From Granulosicoccus sp. (GTDB taxonomy: Bacteria > Pseudomonadota > Gammaproteobacteria > Granulosicoccales > Granulosicoccaceae), in the NCBI GenBank assembly GCA_020627685.1, contig JAHDGK010000024.1, positions 36,986 to 73,175 on the forward strand: 36,190 bases of DNA. The letters run 5' to 3'. Shown one piece after another: positions 5,146-19,560 of this stretch (positions within the stretch are counted from its first letter, which is position 1; every line of letters starts with the position of its first letter). The notes beneath the pieces were generated by a model that was not told where the DNA came from, searched no databases, and worked only from the letters and a program-made list of their open reading frames with translations. A program made the position numbers and the translations under genes.

Positions 5146-6429
5146 TTAAGCAATCTCGCTAAAAATACGCTCTAATTTTTCGCCTTTTATTTTGTTCAAA
5201 GACTTAACATACTGTATGCGACCCAGCAGCTGTGCTCGTAAATTCTCATGACCCTCTCGGTTTTGACTTTCAATGCCGTGCCTTTTGCAGTTAGTTAGCG
5301 TTGCTTTGAGTGCATCGTAGTATTGCCTATCAATATTAGTTTGTGTATTGACCACGATACCGACTAAACGTTGTTTTTGGTGAGGGCGTTTTATACGGGT
5401 TTTTCTGTAGTTCAACGATACGCCTTCATCAATACAAATTCCGCCTACGACTGATTCTAGAAATCGCCAATCGCGATGAACATTGCTCGACAAGGCAATG
5501 TCATCCGCATAACGGGAGTAGTCCATGTCTAAAGAGTTGGCTAAACCCGTCAGTCTGACATCCAGCTGATGTAAGGCCGCGTTAGCCAGTGCAGGGGAGG
5601 TGGGCGCTCCTTGAGGTAGATGCCGTTGTTTTAACCGAATCCGCTGCTCATGCGTAAACAGACGTAGGGTTTTATGGTCCAGTTGAACCCGATGCGAACA
5701 CAAAGCGGTGAGATAGACTGATACCTGCTCTGAATAGCCAAGGGATCGGAATATATTCTTAATGGTTGGCCAGCTTATAGAGTGAAAGCAATCTGCAATA
5801 TCGTACGATATCAAGTAACGTTTACCAACATGGTTGGTAGCGTGTGAAACGCAATTTCTACCTTGGCAAAAACCGTGGGCAGCGTCATGTGTTTCTATTG
5901 TGCTTAGAATGGTGTCGTTTATCTTACGTTGAATTCGTTTAAGGTCTATCTTTGGTTTTTCGATTAATCGTATTCCACCATTACGTTTTTCCAGAAAGTC
6001 GTAGTGGTAGTGTTTAAGATGGCTTGGTGTAGATGCATCGTTACGCCAACAATTAGCGAACCATTCAAGTTCAGTGGTTGAAACTAATAACCATTTCGCT
6101 AGTTCACCGACGCTATTAATTTCTGGGAGTGGTTTTCGGATGTGTGCACTCATACCGCCTTGTTTGAGAGTAAAGCGCGTAATCCTTGGTTGGCTTGAGT
6201 TCCGAATAAACCAGCTGTCGATTCGATCAGATGCGGCTAGAAACTCGGTGATATCGCTTAGAGGTGGCTTTGTAGGGTGTGCCACCAATAGCTCGTTAAT
6301 GACTTCGTTAACATCATCTGGCAAATGGGTGACGCACACAATGGAAGCGCCAAGCAAGGTTTTGTAGTGCCACTCGACTTCAAACAACCAATTCGCAAGC
6401 TGCGATGTGAAAAAAGCTTGTTTGTTCAC
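5146..6429 (-). CDS. ret: Retron-type reverse transcriptase with N-terminal extension
   Basis: 427 residues. RT landmarks in order: GGIRLIEKPK (151-160), HGFCQGRNCVSHA (185-197), SYDIADCFHSI (208-218, catalytic Asp), LPQGAPTSPALANAALH (271-287), YADD (307-310), RLVGIVVN (354-361). N283-A-A-L-H287 matches the retron NAxxH signature; the usual retron VTG triplet is replaced by LVG. Residues 1 to about 105 are an extra domain I do not recognise, making the protein roughly 100 residues longer than minimal retron RTs. From memory this resembles the long RTs of the myxobacterial Mx162 class. The start is GTG with GGAA close upstream. A structured RNA with a1/a2 repeats begins 22 bases upstream (6451-6593). 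It should copy the msd part of that RNA into branched msDNA. No separate effector gene adjoins it. Confidence 0.9.
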   Translation of the reverse strand: MNKQAFFTSQLANWLFEVEWHYKTLLGASIVCVTHLPDDVNEVINELLVAHPTKPPLSDITEFLAASDRIDSWFIRNSSQPRITRFTLKQGGMSAHIRKPLPEINSVGELAKWLLVSTTELEWFANCWRNDASTPSHLKHYHYDFLEKRNGGIRLIEKPKIDLKRIQRKINDTILSTIETHDAAHGFCQGRNCVSHATNHVGKRYLISYDIADCFHSISWPTIKNIFRSLGYSEQVSVYLTALCSHRVQLDHKTLRLFTHEQRIRLKQRHLPQGAPTSPALANAALHQLDVRLTGLANSLDMDYSRYADDIALSSNVHRDWRFLESVVGGICIDEGVSLNYRKTRIKRPHQKQRLVGIVVNTQTNIDRQYYDALKATLTNCKRHGIESQNREGHENLRAQLLGRIQYVKSLNKIKGEKLERIFSEIA

Positions 6430-6687: not shown

Positions 6688-7944
6688 CTATGTCAATAAT
6701 TCATCTTCAAACGGAAATCTAGAGAGCAGTTCTGTCCCTGTTCTAGTCACTAGAAGTTGCTGTTCAAGCTTGACGCCTTCTGTGCCACCAGCCGCACCAA
6801 TATAGCTTTCAACGCAGAGTGTCATGCCGGGTTCGATAGTACCGTCGTACCCGGCATGTGGGAAGTCGCCATGATGGTAGAGGTACGGGTATTCACCTGT
6901 CATACCGCAGCCATGTGCTGATAAATAGTATCGATTGTCGTAGTAGGCTTCGGGTATATTCCATGCTTGATTGGCGTATTCACGAAAACTCAAGCCCGGC
7001 TTGATGATTTCCATGTTGTGGTGCACTTGTTCATGCGCCACTTTGTATAACGTCTTTTGTGTTTCATTCGGCTTGTCCGGGCCAGCGTGAAAAGTACGTG
7101 AAAAATCTGAATAATACCCATGGCAACCAACTACGTCGGTATCCAGAGCAATCAATTCGTTCTCACGAATAAGGCTACTAGACGTTTCTTGGAACCATGG
7201 GTTGGTGCGTTGACCTGCACTGAGTAAGCGTGTCTCGCAGTAGTCTCCATTTTGTTCAATGACCGATTGGTGTAGTACAGACCAAAGTTGATTCTCAGTC
7301 AGGCCCGGTTTTATCGCCGAGCGCAGTTTTTCAACGCCGATTTCTGTTGCTCTTAATGAGGCTTTTATGCATTTCATTTCCTCATCTGACTTGATAGCAC
7401 GTGCCATCTCAACGGCTTGTTGTGCATCTACAATTCGTAGGCCGCAAGCCTGAAGTGCTAGGGCGGTACCCGCGTTCAGACGCTCTAGACCAACTGTCGC
7501 ACCAGCACCAACAAGCTCTGTTATCAGGTCGTTCATCTCAGCAGCCCACTTCGTTTCACGTTTCATGATGTCAGGTCCGGCCGCTACGAAACTGGCTGTG
7601 CTAGCGGGGCGAACTTCGTCAACGGTGTCGAATCCATCCGCTAAATGTAGACAGCCTGTAAATTCGAACAAAATAGATTTGCTGGCAGTTAGTAACAGGT
7701 AGCGAGAAGGTGCGTTGCGCTGGCAGAACACCTGCATGTTTCGTGTGCCCGTTGCATACCTTATATTTATTGGGTCGGACAATATCAACGCATCCACACC
7801 GTAACGCACCATCTCGGCACGCACGCGTGCAAGACGATAATGTCGAACCGCATGAAGGTCAATTCCTTCACTTTCTGGTGCTCGGTCCAGAAGCGCAAGG
7901 TCAGACAAGTCGCTGCGTTCTGCATGCCAGTCGAAATTTGCCAT
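6688..7944 (-). CDS. M24-family metalloenzyme of the DddP (DMSP lyase) type
   Basis: 418 residues with the creatinase/aminopeptidase P two-domain layout. Putative metal ligands are D268, D270, D280, H344, E379 and E394. From memory, the DMSP lyase DddP of Ruegeria lacuscaerulensis uses D295, D297, D307, H371, E406 and E421; every spacing matches with a constant offset of 27. Ordinary M24 peptidases instead have two Asp 11 residues apart. Y339 matches DddP Y366, but the position of D377, proposed as catalytic, is G350 here (HGCGMTGEYPYL). DMSP cleavage to DMS and acrylate is therefore possible but not safe to assume; a related lyase or hydrolase is the alternative. It is divergent from the dehydrogenase operon at 8158 and upstream of the retron on the same strand. 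Confidence 0.75.
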   Translation of the reverse strand: MANFDWHAERSDLSDLALLDRAPESEGIDLHAVRHYRLARVRAEMVRYGVDALILSDPINIRYATGTRNMQVFCQRNAPSRYLLLTASKSILFEFTGCLHLADGFDTVDEVRPASTASFVAAGPDIMKRETKWAAEMNDLITELVGAGATVGLERLNAGTALALQACGLRIVDAQQAVEMARAIKSDEEMKCIKASLRATEIGVEKLRSAIKPGLTENQLWSVLHQSVIEQNGDYCETRLLSAGQRTNPWFQETSSSLIRENELIALDTDVVGCHGYYSDFSRTFHAGPDKPNETQKTLYKVAHEQVHHNMEIIKPGLSFREYANQAWNIPEAYYDNRYYLSAHGCGMTGEYPYLYHHGDFPHAGYDGTIEPGMTLCVESYIGAAGGTEGVKLEQQLLVTRTGTELLSRFPFEDELLT

Positions 7945-8038
7945 TTATAGACGTCCCTTGTTTAAGTAACCGCGGCAAAATCATATCACCTGGTATTGAT
8001 AATATGCATTGACTGCGGTGCGTGTTAAGGCTTGAACC

Positions 8039-8065
8039 AACGGTTTAAGAACCGTTAGCTTTTTT
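8039..8065 (+). terminator. Intrinsic terminator-like hairpin inside a divergent promoter region
   Basis: AACGGTT (8039-8045) and AACCGTT (8050-8056) form a perfect 7-bp stem with a TAAG loop. Six T residues follow at 8060-8065 on the plus strand. It lies upstream of the plus-strand gene at 8158, so it would stop transcripts beginning between 7945 and 8039, as in an attenuator or a short RNA unit. Confidence 0.5.
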
Positions 8066-8114
8066 CGGGTCTAAATCTTTTTCTGAGGCAAGCACACTGG
8101 TGGCAAAGCCTGTT

Positions 8115-8120
8115 TATACT
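8115..8120 (+). promoter_or_regulatory. Possible -10 element for the dehydrogenase operon
   Basis: TATACT matches the sigma70 -10 consensus at five of six positions and lies about 38 bases before the GTG at 8158, downstream of the hairpin at 8039-8065. I see no good -35 at 16-18 bp upstream, so an activator may be needed. Confidence 0.3.
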
Positions 8121-8157
8121 GCTTGGTCGGATTCAGCTTTTAAGAAGAGGCTATCAC

Positions 8158-9027
8158 GTGAAAATTGGCGTAATCGGTTGTGGGAATATGGGGGGCGGTA
8201 TGGCAAGGCAGCTATTGGCTGCCGGGCATACAATGGTTTGCTACGACCCAGACGCTGATACGCTAGATAAGCTACAGGCCGATGGTGTAAAAGCAGCCGC
8301 TTCAGCTGGTGAGTTGGCTAGATCAGTACAGTACATTATTCTGTCCCTTCCAAAAGCAGCTGTCGTCGAAGCGGTTATGCAGGAGATTGGCTCAGACATA
8401 CGTCAGGGTTCGATCGTCTTGGATACTTCTACTTCAGAGCCCGCTACATCACAGGCTATGTCTGAACTTGGTGCGGCGCATGGGTTTTCATTTATAGATG
8501 GTCCGGTAAGCGGCGGACCATCTGCTGCCAATGCCGGAACGATGACTATGCTCCTTGGTGGTGAACTCAGCGCTATCGAGGAACTTAAACCCTTGCTTGA
8601 CATCATCACGGCTAAGACCGTCATCGTGGGTGGCTCTGGTGCTGGGCACGCTGCGAAAATCGCTAACAACATGCTATGTGCTGCAAATCTCGTCTTAGTT
8701 GCGGAAGCAATTCGTCTAGGTGAGGCGTCGGGTGTACAAGCGCAGGATCTACTGGAAGGTATCAATGCAGGGTCGGGTCGTAGCGGCGTCAGTGAAGTCA
8801 ACTTCCCGCGGTGGGTGCTGAATGACGCCTTTGATTCCGGCTTCACAATGGGTTTGATGCGTAAAGATGTCGGGCTTGCACTTGATCTGGCCAAGTCAAC
8901 CCGTGTCGAATTGCCGGGCTTTACTGAAATAGCCGATCTCTGGTTGAACCAATCAACTCATATTTCAGATTCTGCGGACTTTAACGAAATTGTTAAATAC
9001 GATGATAGAGGGAATGACAGTGTCTGA
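8158..9027 (+). CDS. NAD(P)-dependent beta-hydroxyacid dehydrogenase (3-hydroxyisobutyrate dehydrogenase family)
   Basis: 289 residues, normal for the family. The N-terminal IGVIGCGNMGGGMARQL is the Rossmann GxGxxG with the family's preference for NAD(P). DGPVSGGPSAANAGTMT is the substrate-binding segment, and GHAAKIANNML holds the catalytic Lys. Relatives oxidise 3-hydroxyisobutyrate, 3-hydroxypropionate or L-threonate, or reduce tartronate semialdehyde. The start is a GTG with GAGG about 7 bases upstream. It is first in a tight four-gene operon, and its stop overlaps the start region of the aldehyde dehydrogenase. A dehydrogenase followed by an aldehyde dehydrogenase suggests oxidation of a hydroxyacid through a semialdehyde. 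The specific substrate is not determined. Confidence 0.85.
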   Translation: MKIGVIGCGNMGGGMARQLLAAGHTMVCYDPDADTLDKLQADGVKAAASAGELARSVQYIILSLPKAAVVEAVMQEIGSDIRQGSIVLDTSTSEPATSQAMSELGAAHGFSFIDGPVSGGPSAANAGTMTMLLGGELSAIEELKPLLDIITAKTVIVGGSGAGHAAKIANNMLCAANLVLVAEAIRLGEASGVQAQDLLEGINAGSGRSGVSEVNFPRWVLNDAFDSGFTMGLMRKDVGLALDLAKSTRVELPGFTEIADLWLNQSTHISDSADFNEIVKYDDRGNDSV

Positions 9028-10528
9028 ACGATTATGCAAATTGCAACAAGCCATGTTGTCTGTCGGGCTGAATGAACATCCCCAAAGCCTGATTAATGGC
9101 GAGCTAACCGATGGGCCTGGTGCAGACGTTTCATTGATTGATCCATTTACTGAAGAAGTGCTTTTTACTTACGCGGACGCCGATACCGATTTAGCTAAGC
9201 TTGCGTGCGATGCAGCAAGTGCGACTCAGCCCGGTTGGGCTAAAGGCATGTCAGCGGCCGCTCGTGGTCAAGTCATGCAAGACATCTCACGATCGGTCCT
9301 GTCCCATGCTGAACCACTAGCACAAATTGAAGCCATCGTTGCGGGCAAACCCATTCGTGACTGCCGTGTTGAGGTTGCGAAAGTGGCTGAGATGTTTGCC
9401 TACTATTCAGGTTGGGCCGACAAGCTGCACGGCGAAGTTATACCGGTACCTTCTGGACATTTAAACTACACCTTACGCGAACCCTTAGGTGTTGTCTTTC
9501 AGATAACGCCGTGGAATGCACCTATCTTTACCGGCGGTTGGCAAATTGCCCCGGCAATAGCGACAGGCAACAGCGTTGTCATAAAACCTAGCGAATTGAC
9601 GCCAATCACAACAGTGGCGTTGGTTAAGCTTGCTGAAGAGGCAGGACTGCCCAAAGGTGTTGTCAATGTGTTGTGCGGTCTTGGGCCTACTGCAGGACAA
9701 GCCGCTATTGAACATCACGCAGTGCGTAAAGTGGTGTTCGTTGGCTCGCCTGAAACCGGGCGTAGGGTAGCCACGGCGGCTGCATCCAATTTAAAACCTG
9801 CGGTGCTGGAGCTTGGCGGAAAGTCAGCCAATATTGTTTTTGATGATGCCAATTTGAAGCATGCCTGCTTGGGTGCTCAAGCGGCCATATTTTCTGGCGC
9901 CGGACAAAGTTGTGTCGCGGGTTCCCGGTTGTTGGTTCAACGCTCTGTCCACAAAGAGTTTGTTGATATGTTGGCTAATGGGATGAACAACATAACGTTG
10001 GGTGACCCCTTGAATGAGAACACCGAAATTGGTCCCATTAGTAACGCGCGGCAATTTGAACACGTTACCGGCATGATCAAACAGGCTGCTAACGAGGGTG
10101 CAACGATACATACACGTACTAAAAACGATGGTTGTGGTTACTTCGTGCCGCCAACTGTATTAAATGATTTGTCTAATAATGCAACTGCTGCGCAAAGTGA
10201 AATTTTTGGTCCGGTAGTCACCGCTATTCCTTTTGATGACGAGGCAGAGGCGATTGCGTTAGCCAATGATACTAATTTCGGTTTGGCCGGTGCTGTGTGG
10301 ACGTCAGACGTGGGGCGTGCTCACCGAATTGCAGAAGCTGTGAGGGCTGGCACCTTCTGGATTAATAGTTACAAGGCAATTCATGTTTCATCGCCGTTCG
10401 GTGGGTCGCTTAACTCAGGGTTTGGCAGGTCAAGCGGCACAGATGCATTGATGGAGTATACGGCTGCCAAGAGTGTCTGGCTGGACAGTGCGCCAACACC
10501 CAAGATTGCTTTTGGGTATGTGTCGTAG
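9020..10528 (+). CDS. Aldehyde dehydrogenase family protein
   Basis: About 502 residues from the chosen start. Seen in order: FQITPWNAPIFTGGWQ with the catalytic Asn, VIKPSELTP for cofactor binding, FVGSPETGRRV, LELGGKSANIV with the general-base Glu, FSGAGQSCVAGSRLLV with the nucleophilic Cys, and EIFGPVV. These mark a functional NAD(P)+-dependent aldehyde dehydrogenase close to the betaine-aldehyde/semialdehyde group. I prefer GTG 9020 because AGAGGGA (9007-9013) is 6 bases upstream. ATG 9014 is too near that site, and TTG 8990 and ATG 9002 lack one. It overlaps the previous gene's stop and is coupled to it. Likely it oxidises the aldehyde made by that dehydrogenase or by the DddP-like pathway. 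Confidence 0.9.
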   Translation: MSERLCKLQQAMLSVGLNEHPQSLINGELTDGPGADVSLIDPFTEEVLFTYADADTDLAKLACDAASATQPGWAKGMSAAARGQVMQDISRSVLSHAEPLAQIEAIVAGKPIRDCRVEVAKVAEMFAYYSGWADKLHGEVIPVPSGHLNYTLREPLGVVFQITPWNAPIFTGGWQIAPAIATGNSVVIKPSELTPITTVALVKLAEEAGLPKGVVNVLCGLGPTAGQAAIEHHAVRKVVFVGSPETGRRVATAAASNLKPAVLELGGKSANIVFDDANLKHACLGAQAAIFSGAGQSCVAGSRLLVQRSVHKEFVDMLANGMNNITLGDPLNENTEIGPISNARQFEHVTGMIKQAANEGATIHTRTKNDGCGYFVPPTVLNDLSNNATAAQSEIFGPVVTAIPFDDEAEAIALANDTNFGLAGAVWTSDVGRAHRIAEAVRAGTFWINSYKAIHVSSPFGGSLNSGFGRSSGTDALMEYTAAKSVWLDSAPTPKIAFGYVS

Positions 10529-11266: not shown

Positions 11267-12153
11267 ATGCGTCATTTGGAGTGGATCATCCACTTGTCGC
11301 AACCCATGACATCAATCAACTTCGTGATTTACTGATTGCCCTTGGGTTCAACATGACCGCAATAGGTAAACATCCGTGGGGCACGAGTACCAGTCTTGCA
11401 ATGTTTGATGGTTGTTTACTTGAAATCATGGGTATCTATGACAGTGCTTTGATCGATGAGGTTCCTGCAGGACATTTTCGATTCGGCCGGCATGTTTACG
11501 AATATCTTCAGGAACGCGAAGGTGTTGCCCTGACAGCATTACACAGCACAGATTCTCGCAATGATGCGCAACGCGCCGAAGACGCAGGCTTTACCGTTGC
11601 AGGGCATCTTGAATTTGGCCGCGACGTAACTTTGCCCGATGGTACATCCGACCGGACGAAAACAACGCTTGCCTTACTTCCTGATCTTAAGTTTCCCCGT
11701 TTGTCTTTTTTTCTTTGTCAGCAACATCGGCCTGAACTGATCTATGTACCCGAATGGTTGGAGCATCCCAACAAAGTCACCGGCATTTGCGGTGTGAATA
11801 TCATTGCAGACACGCCTTATCATTCAGACTTGGTAGCACGCTTCAGCCAACTGTACGATGGATACACCAAGTTCGATGGTGGATTTCAATACCAGACAGC
11901 AAATGGGGTATTAAGAGTGATGGATGCTGCGTGCTTTGAACGAACCATCGGCCGCGTGCCAGAAGCTATTGCACAAGAACCGTTGCCTTGTATCGCTGGA
12001 ATGGATTTGGTGATGTCTGAGCCGGCAGTTTTCAGCGAATATCTCAAGGCCAGTAATCTGGCTTATGGTGAAATTCCAAACGGATTTGTGTTGACATCAC
12101 CTGAGACAACTGCGAACACAACTCTGAGGTTCATGTCAAAAGAATATAAATGA
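11263..12153 (+). CDS. VOC/glyoxalase-like domain protein
   Basis: 296 residues resembling the large glyoxalase-like family (Glyoxalase_3 type). The first repeat begins VDHPLVATHDINQLRDLLIALGF and contains a metal-ligand-like His and a later LLEIMGIY Glu. A second repeat begins at GICGVNIIAD. These proteins form beta-alpha-beta-beta-beta barrels that act as lyases, isomerases or dioxygenases, usually with a divalent metal. Its start overlaps the acetyltransferase stop by 4 bases, so it is the last gene of the operon starting at 8158. A terminator hairpin lies about 110 bases downstream. The reaction is unknown. Confidence 0.7.
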   Translation: MNASFGVDHPLVATHDINQLRDLLIALGFNMTAIGKHPWGTSTSLAMFDGCLLEIMGIYDSALIDEVPAGHFRFGRHVYEYLQEREGVALTALHSTDSRNDAQRAEDAGFTVAGHLEFGRDVTLPDGTSDRTKTTLALLPDLKFPRLSFFLCQQHRPELIYVPEWLEHPNKVTGICGVNIIADTPYHSDLVARFSQLYDGYTKFDGGFQYQTANGVLRVMDAACFERTIGRVPEAIAQEPLPCIAGMDLVMSEPAVFSEYLKASNLAYGEIPNGFVLTSPETTANTTLRFMSKEYK

Positions 12154-12262
12154 GTCGATTGTTCTCTACCGTTTTTTTTTTGGCGGTTCTATCATCGGTA
12201 CTGCCACTGCAGATTATTCGGCGTAGCTGGTATCTGTCATAGGATGCATGTGCAAGTCGGTG

Positions 12263-12292
12263 CACAACCGGCCACCACTTGTGCCGGTTGTG
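12263..12292. terminator. Intrinsic terminator between convergent genes
   Basis: CACAACCGGC (12263-12272) and GCCGGTTGTG (12283-12292) form a perfect 10-bp GC-rich stem with a 10-nt loop, followed on the plus strand by the T-rich tract TTTATCGTTTTCTT. It ends the operon 8158-12153 and sits just past the stop of the convergent PEBP gene. Confidence 0.75.
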
Positions 12293-12304
12293 TTTATCGT
12301 TTTC

Positions 12305-12937
12305 TTATTGGGAAGGTGTTAAATCTCTGTTCATCGTGTAGGTTCCCATATAACTTGCTTTATCCAAGATATGCGGTTGAATGGCAGCTAATGCCTGATG
12401 GCCATCGAAGGGTTCGGGTATCGATATTGTCTCTTGATCAAGAGCGTAAACGGTGAAGTGATAGTGATGCATGATGGAATCGTTCCATGGAGGGCATGGG
12501 CCATCATAGTCAGCGTAGTTACCCTCCATATCAGCATCTCCGGCAAACCACTGTGTGTAGTTATTTAGCCCGGCTGTGCCATAAGTTCTCTGGCCTGAGG
12601 TTTTGCCTCGAGGTGTGACGCCAGCAGATGCCTCCCCCTCTGTTAATTCAGTTTTATCAGCCGGTATGTTTAGTAGCACCCAGTGAAAAAAATCTACGCG
12701 CGCTAAGTCTGCAGGTACAGTCTTGCCTTCCTGGTTCACGTTCTCAGCTGACGAAGGCACATCTGGATCGTGACAAATTAGTGCATATGACTTTGTTCCC
12801 TGTGGGGCATTCTCCCAGCTGATCGGGGGGCTAACGTTGCCTCCCAATTCGAATCGTCCTTCTGTCGGTATCTGCCCGAACGCATATGTTGATGGTATGG
12901 CAGATCCGTGGGTCCAACTAGGTATTGTGATTTTCAT
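12305..12937 (-). CDS. YbhB/YbcL family Raf-kinase-inhibitor-like protein (PEBP fold)
   Basis: 210 residues. The family core is visible: SYALICHDPDVPS with the anion-pocket Asp-Pro-Asp, FHWVLLNIPAD, and DYDGPCPPWNDSIMHHYHFTVYALD. Bacterial members are small cytoplasmic or periplasmic phospholipid-binding-like proteins of unclear role. No signal peptide is evident. It is a monocistronic minus-strand gene with an upstream gap of about 214 bases (12938-13151). In that gap I see only a direct repeat of GTTCGTT at 12979-12985 and 12995-13001 and no clear promoter. Confidence 0.9.
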   Translation of the reverse strand: MKITIPSWTHGSAIPSTYAFGQIPTEGRFELGGNVSPPISWENAPQGTKSYALICHDPDVPSSAENVNQEGKTVPADLARVDFFHWVLLNIPADKTELTEGEASAGVTPRGKTSGQRTYGTAGLNNYTQWFAGDADMEGNYADYDGPCPPWNDSIMHHYHFTVYALDQETISIPEPFDGHQALAAIQPHILDKASYMGTYTMNRDLTPSQ

Positions 12938-13151
12938 TATTTAGCCCTCAATTGATGAATAGTGAGAGAACAGCTTACGTTCGTTTGCGATTTTGTTCGT
13001 TCAGATGGCGATCAAAAACTATCGGAATTCGATCAATGAGTTGTGGGCCGCTCTAATAAGATTGCGCATGTTGAGTACGAAACGAGCGCGACTGTGACTA
13101 AGCTACTAGCCCTTGTATTGTTAGCGGTATGTATTCGTAATAAGCAGTCGC

Positions 13152-18693: not shown

Positions 18694-19560
18694 TTATGCT
18701 TGGTTTTGTTGCCAGATTTTTGGATAGAGATCAGTGCCAGGACGGTCTCCTGGCTTCAGTCCGTATTCAGTCATGATGGCGCTGTGGTCCGGGTCCATAC
18801 CGCACTCTCTAAATTTTATACGAGCATCGTCTCCAAGCCACTTAGTGGTAAACACTTCTAATCCTTTGTCTTCATCGAGTTTGCCTGAACCGCCGTGCAA
18901 AATACGACTATTAAAGGCGACGCAATCCCCGGGGTTCATGTCCCAACTTATTACACCATAGCGTTCGGGGTCAGCATCGATGTCGGGAATGGACTCTTCA
19001 GCAATGCCAGAAAAATTCACTTGATCAACGTCGGTCTTGCCATCCGGATTTAGTTCACCAAAATTTGGCTGATCAAAAATTTGATTGTTCAGATGCGAGC
19101 CGGGCACGAACGCCAGAGCGTTTTTCTTTTTAACGGGTACGAGGGGCATCCAAATAGTACAAGTGTCATAACCTTCTATGGACCAATAAGGCTCGTCTTG
19201 ATGCCATGGTGTCGAAAACTGAGTGCCCGGTGAGCGAACGAAAACTGCGTCAAAGAAAAAATTGATCTCTGTGGCTTTTAACAGTTTGCCGGCAATCTCG
19301 GCAGCAGGAGAGTTAAAAATAAACTGCTGGTATTCATCGACCTCCTGCCAGGCCTGGCTATCCCAAAACATCGTGCGGCCCTCGGCATCACGATCCCAGG
19401 TACGTGCACGATGCGTTGGATTTTTACCGTTGATCATTAACCCTCGCTTCAGCACTTCTATCCAATCTGAATCGAACATGTCCTTTACAAGGACGACCCC
19501 ATCGCGATGGTAAGCATCGATTTCATCAGCGGTTATTTCGCGTTGTAATTCAGTATTCAT
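18694..19560 (-). CDS. Phytanoyl-CoA dioxygenase (PhyH) family Fe(II)/2-oxoglutarate oxygenase
   Basis: 288 residues. The iron ligands are H120-Q-D122 in STPWHQDEPYW and H222 in NSRILHGG, the 2-His-1-carboxylate set of PhyH proteins. The residue normally binding the 2-oxoglutarate carboxylate is Arg about 10 residues after the distal His. Here the nearby stretch DKGLEVFTTKW has only lysines, which is worth noting. It should hydroxylate a small organic substrate using O2 and 2-oxoglutarate. It is upstream of a hydroxyacid dehydrogenase and divergent from a LysR regulator, forming a small inducible unit. Confidence 0.87.
   Translation of the reverse strand: MNTELQREITADEIDAYHRDGVVLVKDMFDSDWIEVLKRGLMINGKNPTHRARTWDRDAEGRTMFWDSQAWQEVDEYQQFIFNSPAAEIAGKLLKATEINFFFDAVFVRSPGTQFSTPWHQDEPYWSIEGYDTCTIWMPLVPVKKKNALAFVPGSHLNNQIFDQPNFGELNPDGKTDVDQVNFSGIAEESIPDIDADPERYGVISWDMNPGDCVAFNSRILHGGSGKLDEDKGLEVFTTKWLGDDARIKFRECGMDPDHSAIMTEYGLKPGDRPGTDLYPKIWQQNQA

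Follow-up and report, generated by a model that had tools for sequence, protein, structure and literature searches.

A DddP-related M24 protein of Granulosicoccus with glycine at the site of the DddP aspartate

Active-site residues and likeness to DddP

A gene in a 36,190-nucleotide stretch of Granulosicoccus sp. DNA (the window) encodes a protein with the metal-binding residues of the DMSP lyase DddP and a glycine at the site of a DddP aspartate. Is this protein a DddP that has lost its aspartate, a different member of the M24 fold, or a member of a lineage of its own, and on what might it act? The open reading frame starts with ATG and codes for 418 residues without internal stops (Table 1), and a Pfam scan of the product finds Peptidase_M24 (PF00557, 109.9 bits) and Creatinase_N. 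In a MAFFT alignment with RlDddP (4rzy), residues D268, D270, D280, H344, E379 and E394 fall on D295, D297, D307, H371, E406 and E421 at an offset of 27 throughout, and with the same offset Y339 falls on Y366 and G350 on D377. A reading made from the sequence alone had named the same six ligands at this constant offset, the same tyrosine and the same glycine; the alignment reproduces the ligands, and both the alignment and a direct reading of the window codons for residues 339-350 (YYLSAHGCGMTG) bear out the other two. The Trp that binds the DMSP sulfur in DddP, which we take to be Trp95, is replaced by Phe73.

The six ligands are those listed for DddP by Hehemann et al. (2014; PMC4108388), in whose account Asp377 is the favoured base, Tyr366 is the alternative and both are invariant in DddP. 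A review describes the DMSP sulfur as bound by a Trp and a Tyr and the proton as abstracted by an Asp (PMC5395565). Both candidate bases appear as mutants in PDB titles, D377N in 4s01 and Y366A in 4s00.

The likeness to DddP extends over the whole protein. When the protein is compared with solved structures by phmmer, DddP chains match at E values of 1e-66 to 3e-64, followed by Xaa-Pro peptidases and other M24 enzymes at 5e-16 and weaker, so the resemblance to DddP exceeds chance. An AF2 model (pLDDT 86.7, pTM 0.86; residues 1-20 and 244-252 are below 50, the latter stretch bordering the F251 site) retrieves four DddP entries as the top Foldseek matches, with a TM score of 0.89 on the query, while other M24 enzymes reach at most 0.73 among the 50 matches listed. 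Shared with DddP (RlDddP 4rzy, RdDddP 4b28 and the equivalog model NF043017) are the fold, the six ligands including the unusual D297, Tyr366 and an RTNPWFQE segment, at about 31-34% identity. In contrast, the protein scores 299.3 bits with NF043017, half of the 600-bit cut-off, has Gly350 for Asp377 and Phe73 for Trp95, falls in a separate clade outside DddP, and has some relatives in betaine-gene neighbourhoods. The host genome also encodes a true DddP on another contig (895.3 bits with the same model). The window gene is thus a second, divergent member of the family in this host.

Table 1. Features of the window, with positions counted from its first nucleotide.
Feature	Position	Strand	Basis or remark
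M24-fold gene, DddP sister family (G350 clade)	6688..7944	minus	418 aa; Pfam, HMM, trees, structure
Gly350 codon, site of DddP Asp377	6895..6897	minus	alignment and codon read; Gly in 80/80 orthologs
Tyr339 codon, site of DddP Tyr366	6928..6930	minus	alignment and codon read; Tyr in 176/178 distinct rows
Phe73 codon, site of DddP Trp95	7726..7728	minus	codon read; Phe in 80/80 orthologs
Metal-ligand stretch D268 to D280 (D268, D270, D280)	7105..7143	minus	alignment; coordinates by arithmetic
Metal ligand H344	6913..6915	minus	alignment and codon read
Metal ligand E379	6808..6810	minus	alignment; coordinates by arithmetic
Metal ligand E394	6763..6765	minus	alignment; coordinates by arithmetic
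HIBADH-type dehydrogenase, divergent neighbour	8158..9027	plus	TIGR01692, 198 bits, below cut-off 291.6
Aldehyde dehydrogenase	8990..10528	plus	PF00171; listed ORF overlaps the end of the 8158..9027 gene
Retron-like reverse transcriptase	5146..6429	minus	adjoins the M24 gene
PhyH dioxygenase	18694..19560	minus	78.8 bits

Gly350 and Phe73 mark a clade beside DddP

A scan of genome contigs yielded 97 relatives, of which the best 80 (62-82% identity) were used as orthologs. All 80 have Gly at site 350, Phe at site 73, Tyr339 and the six metal ligands intact. A recent loss of the aspartate in one strain, or a sequencing slip, is ruled out by the presence of Gly in 80/80 orthologs from other genomes. 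Asp at site 350 together with Trp at site 73 is found in 17 DddP rows, RlDddP and 12 DddP-like rows (L034 was excluded from the DddP-like group and the second gene of L084 was placed in no group; both were tallied separately). Over 178 distinct superfamily rows, with 10 genes present twice counted once, the pairs at sites 73 and 350 are F/G in 93 rows, W/D in 43 and Y/G in 36, the rarer combinations being F/D (3), W/G (1), N/G (1) and a gap (1). The six ligands are complete in 175 of these rows, and the three exceptions are a row cut at a contig end, a gene with an in-frame stop and a divergent row. A long list of residues is invariant over 42 aligned members.

Outgroup rows for the trees were other M24 proteins of the host genome, which holds eight M24 matches; five others were aligned after exclusion of rows outside 300-700 aa (two), and two did not align. 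A quick tree of 105 rows, built without columns 73 and 350, comprises 102 superfamily rows and three such same-genome M24 proteins, which separate at a support of 99. One clade of 53 rows (SH-aLRT 98) includes the window protein; another, of 39 rows (98), includes DddP and is made up of the Asp rows and one Gly row, L167. Site 350 needs two changes on this tree and site 73 needs five. For a more careful tree of 41 rows, 64 of the 105 rows were dropped, L034, L167, L012 and own_L115 by name (all long) and the rest by identity. L167, the row that causes the second change at site 350, is therefore absent, and on this tree site 350 needs one change and site 73 four, with a support of 100/98 for the Asp clade and of 100/99 for the split of 39 rows from two other same-genome M24 proteins. 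Asp is the derived state on the 41-row tree, although the root is weak and rests on two long outgroup rows.

Both trees place the window protein beside DddP. Gly350 is the mark of a conserved clade that is sister to DddP, and the protein is not a DddP copy with a lost Asp. The sequence-only reading, which proposed a DddP lineage with altered substrate or mechanism, finds support for the lineage, to which the nearest structures, the HMM and the trees all point. Its view of the aspartate as lost is not borne out, since Gly350 marks a large clade and Asp occurs only on the DddP side of the rooted 41-row tree. Given the tree and the 80/80 Gly, "without the catalytic Asp" is better taken to mean that the protein comes from the part of the family in which Asp does not occur.

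The best 80 of the 97 relatives come from Alphaproteobacteria, Halomonas and its relatives, other gammaproteobacterial MAGs, Paraburkholderia and Acidimicrobiales MAGs. Of 397 genomes sampled across the phylum, 28 have relatives of either clade (E <= 1e-80), as do 59 of 121 genomes in the family of genome G301; close orthologs (E <= 1e-150) occur in 10 of 385 genomes in the class of genome G274. The best relatives of the window protein are found in Roseobacter-group Alphaproteobacteria, at 82% identity (very near genomes may lie outside the scan), and in a search of 48 genomes of the host's order at E <= 1e-40, no genome but the host's own gave a match above 41% identity. From this distribution, horizontal transfer into the gammaproteobacterial host, which is of the same class as Halomonas, appears likely. 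The GC content is 49.0% for the gene and 47.6% for the window.

Gene neighbourhoods of the window gene and its relatives

No betaine transporter or demethylase gene, among the families of the first count described below, lies within two places of the window M24 gene. The divergent HIBADH-type and aldehyde dehydrogenase genes had been proposed to process acrylate or 3-hydroxypropionate. Both genes are present, but the case for these substrates is weak. The neighbours of some relatives point to quaternary-ammonium betaines and not to DMSP. An adjacent HIBADH-ALDH pair occurs in three of 155 related loci (L082, L085 and L254), with the HIBADH gene four, five and two places from the M24 gene, which makes the link only suggestive. 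In L082 and L085, from Halomonas relatives with an ortholog, the pair is 43-45% and 51-52% identical to the window pair and lies 4-6 places off; in L254 it is 33% and 32% identical and lies 2-3 places off.

Two further genes of the window are noted here. The reverse transcriptase scores 424 bits with the PADLOC model RT_other, 407 with RT_outgroup and 309 with RT_XIII, and 185 bits with the NCBIfam model St85, below its cut-off; an Rfam scan of the whole window at gathering scores returned one partial tRNA and no retron RNA. The PhyH dioxygenase is 64% identical to the product of a gene five places from the M24 ortholog in the Acidimicrobiales locus L087.

The neighbourhoods of relatives were compared on genes called with a home-made program based on codon usage; in the window this program did not recover the reverse-transcriptase gene. 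We counted the betaine classes OpuAC, MttB, DMGDH-like, BCCT, GbcA, GbcB, CdhA and BKACE, near being within two places of the M24 gene and far five or more places away. The label CdhA is our assumption, made from 3-hydroxyacyl-CoA dehydrogenase domains. The families for the first count were chosen after looking at the neighbours, with seeds first picked by eye; nearly all seeds were then confirmed with Pfam or NCBIfam, the LysR seed being by eye only. Four loci in this count were unclassified by motif. Around the 98 G-type loci, OpuAC makes up 11/375 near genes against 0/502 far genes, and all betaine classes together 18/375 against 3/502 (two-sided p 6e-5), with a betaine gene near in only 14 of the 98. 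The 19 Asp-type loci show 9/79 near against 1/90 far (p 0.006), in 7 loci. Among the neighbours counted around G-type genes, a LysR-type regulator is the most frequent, lying no more than two places away in 22 of the 98 loci.

The enrichment was further examined in a held-out set, for which the prediction was fixed beforehand with the same seeds and thresholds and from which 5 of 40 loci were dropped as duplicates. Betaine classes make up 16/139 near genes against 1/196 far genes (one-sided p 5e-6), in 14 of the 35 loci, which are not independent, as 28 belong to a single bacterial family and four genomes contribute two loci apiece. Two of the 35 genes are Asp-type. The signal is strongest in the 24 loci at 41-54% identity (13/95 near against 0/132 far; 12 loci), whereas in the 11 loci at 59-75% identity it is not significant (3/44 against 1/64, p 0.18; 2 loci). 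The association with betaine genes is statistical: it is strongest at 41-54% identity, found in single cases among orthologs at 68-81%, and absent in the window.

Individual loci illustrate these contexts. OpuAC binding-protein genes lie beside orthologs in Halomonas and its relatives (L082-L085), Paraburkholderia (L111), Sinorhizobium (L041) and a Hyphomicrobiales MAG (L078). In L062, L072 and L075 the genes no more than two places from the ortholog include MttB and one for a DMGDH-like protein. In L161, which encodes a 49% relative, one stretch holds OpuAC, a HalD dioxygenase, a 3-hydroxyacyl-CoA-dehydrogenase-type gene and BKACE; the ortholog in L081 adjoins a dehydrogenase similar to that of L161 and a thioesterase, and also an oligopeptide-type ABC binding protein. 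We take the dehydrogenase-type, thioesterase and BKACE context of these two loci to represent carnitine genes. On S. meliloti pSymA (CP140933, WQO96739.1) and in Shinella, a 47% relative annotated as an Xaa-Pro peptidase is set in the order MttB / GlxA regulator, M24, isochorismatase and then a glycine-betaine ABC transporter of two permeases, an ATPase and a binding protein. The pSymA protein resembles the window protein in its Gly at site 350 and in its score with the DddP HMM (316 bits); it differs in having Tyr at the Phe73 site (by eye) and in the MttB and glycine-betaine ABC set that the window lacks. Near Asp-side relatives lie GbcA- and GbcB-like genes that score under the equivalog cut-offs, a gene for glutathione-independent formaldehyde dehydrogenase that exceeds its cut-off, and also BCCT or MttB genes.

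The contexts vary, with carnitine-, glycine-betaine- and hydroxyproline-like genes in some loci and phosphonate- or oligopeptide-type ABC genes in others, and a single substrate common to all relatives is not evident. The phosphonate-type ABC genes adjoin some Acidimicrobiales orthologs; since these loci also share housekeeping-looking neighbours (argS-like, by eye), we regard them as one-lineage synteny and set them aside as a functional clue.

Several loci show further features. HalD-type dioxygenases (Pfam "Halogenase D"), presumably an amino-acid halogenase/hydroxylase family, are encoded no more than two places from the M24 gene in 10 of the 98 G-type loci and in 24 of the 35 held-out loci, where they lay outside the fixed prediction (L160-L162, L168-L170, L174-L176, L195, L250-L254, L256-L264 and L266-L275, several with an aldehyde dehydrogenase adjoining). 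The Halomonas locus L084 has two family members, at 8001-9260 (plus) and 11886-13145 (minus), 69% and 50% identical to the window protein; a separate OpuAC-type binding-protein gene accompanies each of them, and the second also has a HalD dioxygenase. In L250 (G482:C3) a 60% relative contains one in-frame TGA, and HalD and BCCT genes are present in the locus. A TPP-dependent acetolactate-synthase-like gene lies directly upstream of the M24 ortholog on the same strand in L069, L070, L071 and L091, and two places upstream, also on the same strand, in L094; its identity was assigned by Pfam for the L070 copy and by eye for the other four.

Possible function and alternatives

We infer a metal content, substrate, cleaved bond and mechanism for the window protein from its lineage, its conserved set of metal ligands, the coupling of F73 with G350 and the betaine-gene association of some relatives. 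The reading that we favour, tentatively, is that a binuclear metal centre cleaves a small quaternary-ammonium betaine at its C-N bond, and not DMSP at its C-S bond, without the proposed Asp base of DddP. By analogy with DddP, the carboxylate of the substrate would be held by the two metals, and the onium group may be caged by Phe73 and Tyr339, where DddP has a Trp and a Tyr. In the absence of Asp at site 350, either Tyr339 or a metal-bound hydroxide could act as the base, and the outcome of this step would be elimination or hydrolysis.

A wider proposal, which we hold with more doubt, is that the F/Y73-G350 clade constitutes an unrecognised family of betaine C-N-cleaving enzymes and that DddP is a branch of an older betaine-cleaving superfamily, with Trp95 and Asp377 as a derived adaptation to DMSP. 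Such an origin would agree with the Km of DddP for DMSP, which lies in the millimolar range (listed values of 14 and 17 mM; PMC5395565). If the clade does act on betaines, it would add an enzyme step to quaternary ammonium catabolism and allow a direct test, via sites 73 and 350, of the origin of the weak DMSP activity of DddP.

The alternative that survives best, though we consider it rather unlikely, is a hydrolase of amide or amidine C-N bonds resembling creatinase or ectoine hydrolase. Its substrate would be a nitrogen-containing compatible solute or an N-methylated derivative of an amino acid, and it would remove no amine from a betaine. Ectoine hydrolase DoeA and creatinase (6twk, 1chm) have the same M24 fold and use it on small nitrogenous solutes, and aldehyde dehydrogenase or HalD-type dioxygenase genes adjoin a number of relatives. 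However, the window protein is far from DoeA, with 51.7 bits for DoeA_2 (cut-off 575) and 42.4 bits for the other DoeA model (cut-off 613), the TM score for these two enzymes is about 0.70 compared with 0.89 for DddP, and it lacks two His of the prolidase 3q6d.

These two His, which we take to be the catalytic His of M24B peptidases, face F251 and G350 in the alignment; the Foldseek matches listed include E. coli aminopeptidase P with a His243Ala mutation. A second alternative is an M24B peptidase for Xaa-Pro or Xaa-Hyp dipeptides. Public annotation takes this view, naming relatives "Xaa-Pro peptidase family protein" or "aminopeptidase P family protein", and the Pfam Peptidase_M24 match agrees with it, as does the L109 ortholog that adjoins a cis-3-hydroxyproline dehydratase-like gene (473 bits, cut-off 500). 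The M24 fold, a creatinase-type N-domain and most metal ligands are shared with M24B Xaa-Pro peptidases and prolidases (3q6d, 1a16). But most of the ligands are common to M24 enzymes in general and D270 is not: this column holds Asp in 178/178 distinct superfamily rows and Gly in the three same-genome M24 proteins that align there. The protein also groups with DddP rather than with other M24 proteins on both trees, whose outgroups are three and two long-branched rows, respectively. The replaced His, the Asp270 for Gly and the trees rule out an ordinary Xaa-Pro peptidase, and we regard the dipeptidase reading as improbable.

Quite improbable as well is a DddP-like DMSP lyase in which Tyr339 or a metal hydroxide would serve as the base. 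DddP enzymes are the closest solved relatives, and Tyr366 is named as the alternative base in RdDddP (PMC4108388). DddP homologs are also reported from Labrenzia, with 35.16% identity to DddP2, and from Halomonas (PMC6309047); both genera carry orthologs, and these homologs may be the same as the orthologs described here. Against this, the favoured and invariant base of DddP (PMC4108388) is absent, Phe replaces Trp95, a DddP scoring 895 bits is already encoded by the host, and orthologs are also present in Sinorhizobium, Paraburkholderia and Acidimicrobiales MAGs. A catalytically dead or regulatory M24 fold would explain why both the proposed base of DddP and the two prolidase His are missing, but is very unlikely given the six ligands in 80/80 orthologs and the long invariant-residue list over 42 members.

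We found no paper on the clade itself among the open-access literature matches listed, and its annotated relatives carry peptidase names. No bacterial DMSP lyase genes are more abundant in the Global Ocean Sampling metagenome than dddP and dddQ (PMC5395565), and members of the G350 sister clade could be miscounted as dddP at loose thresholds. As a minor observation, the true DddP gene of the host (locus L191) adjoins TRAP-transporter-like genes (by eye), with an MttB-family gene a few genes off.
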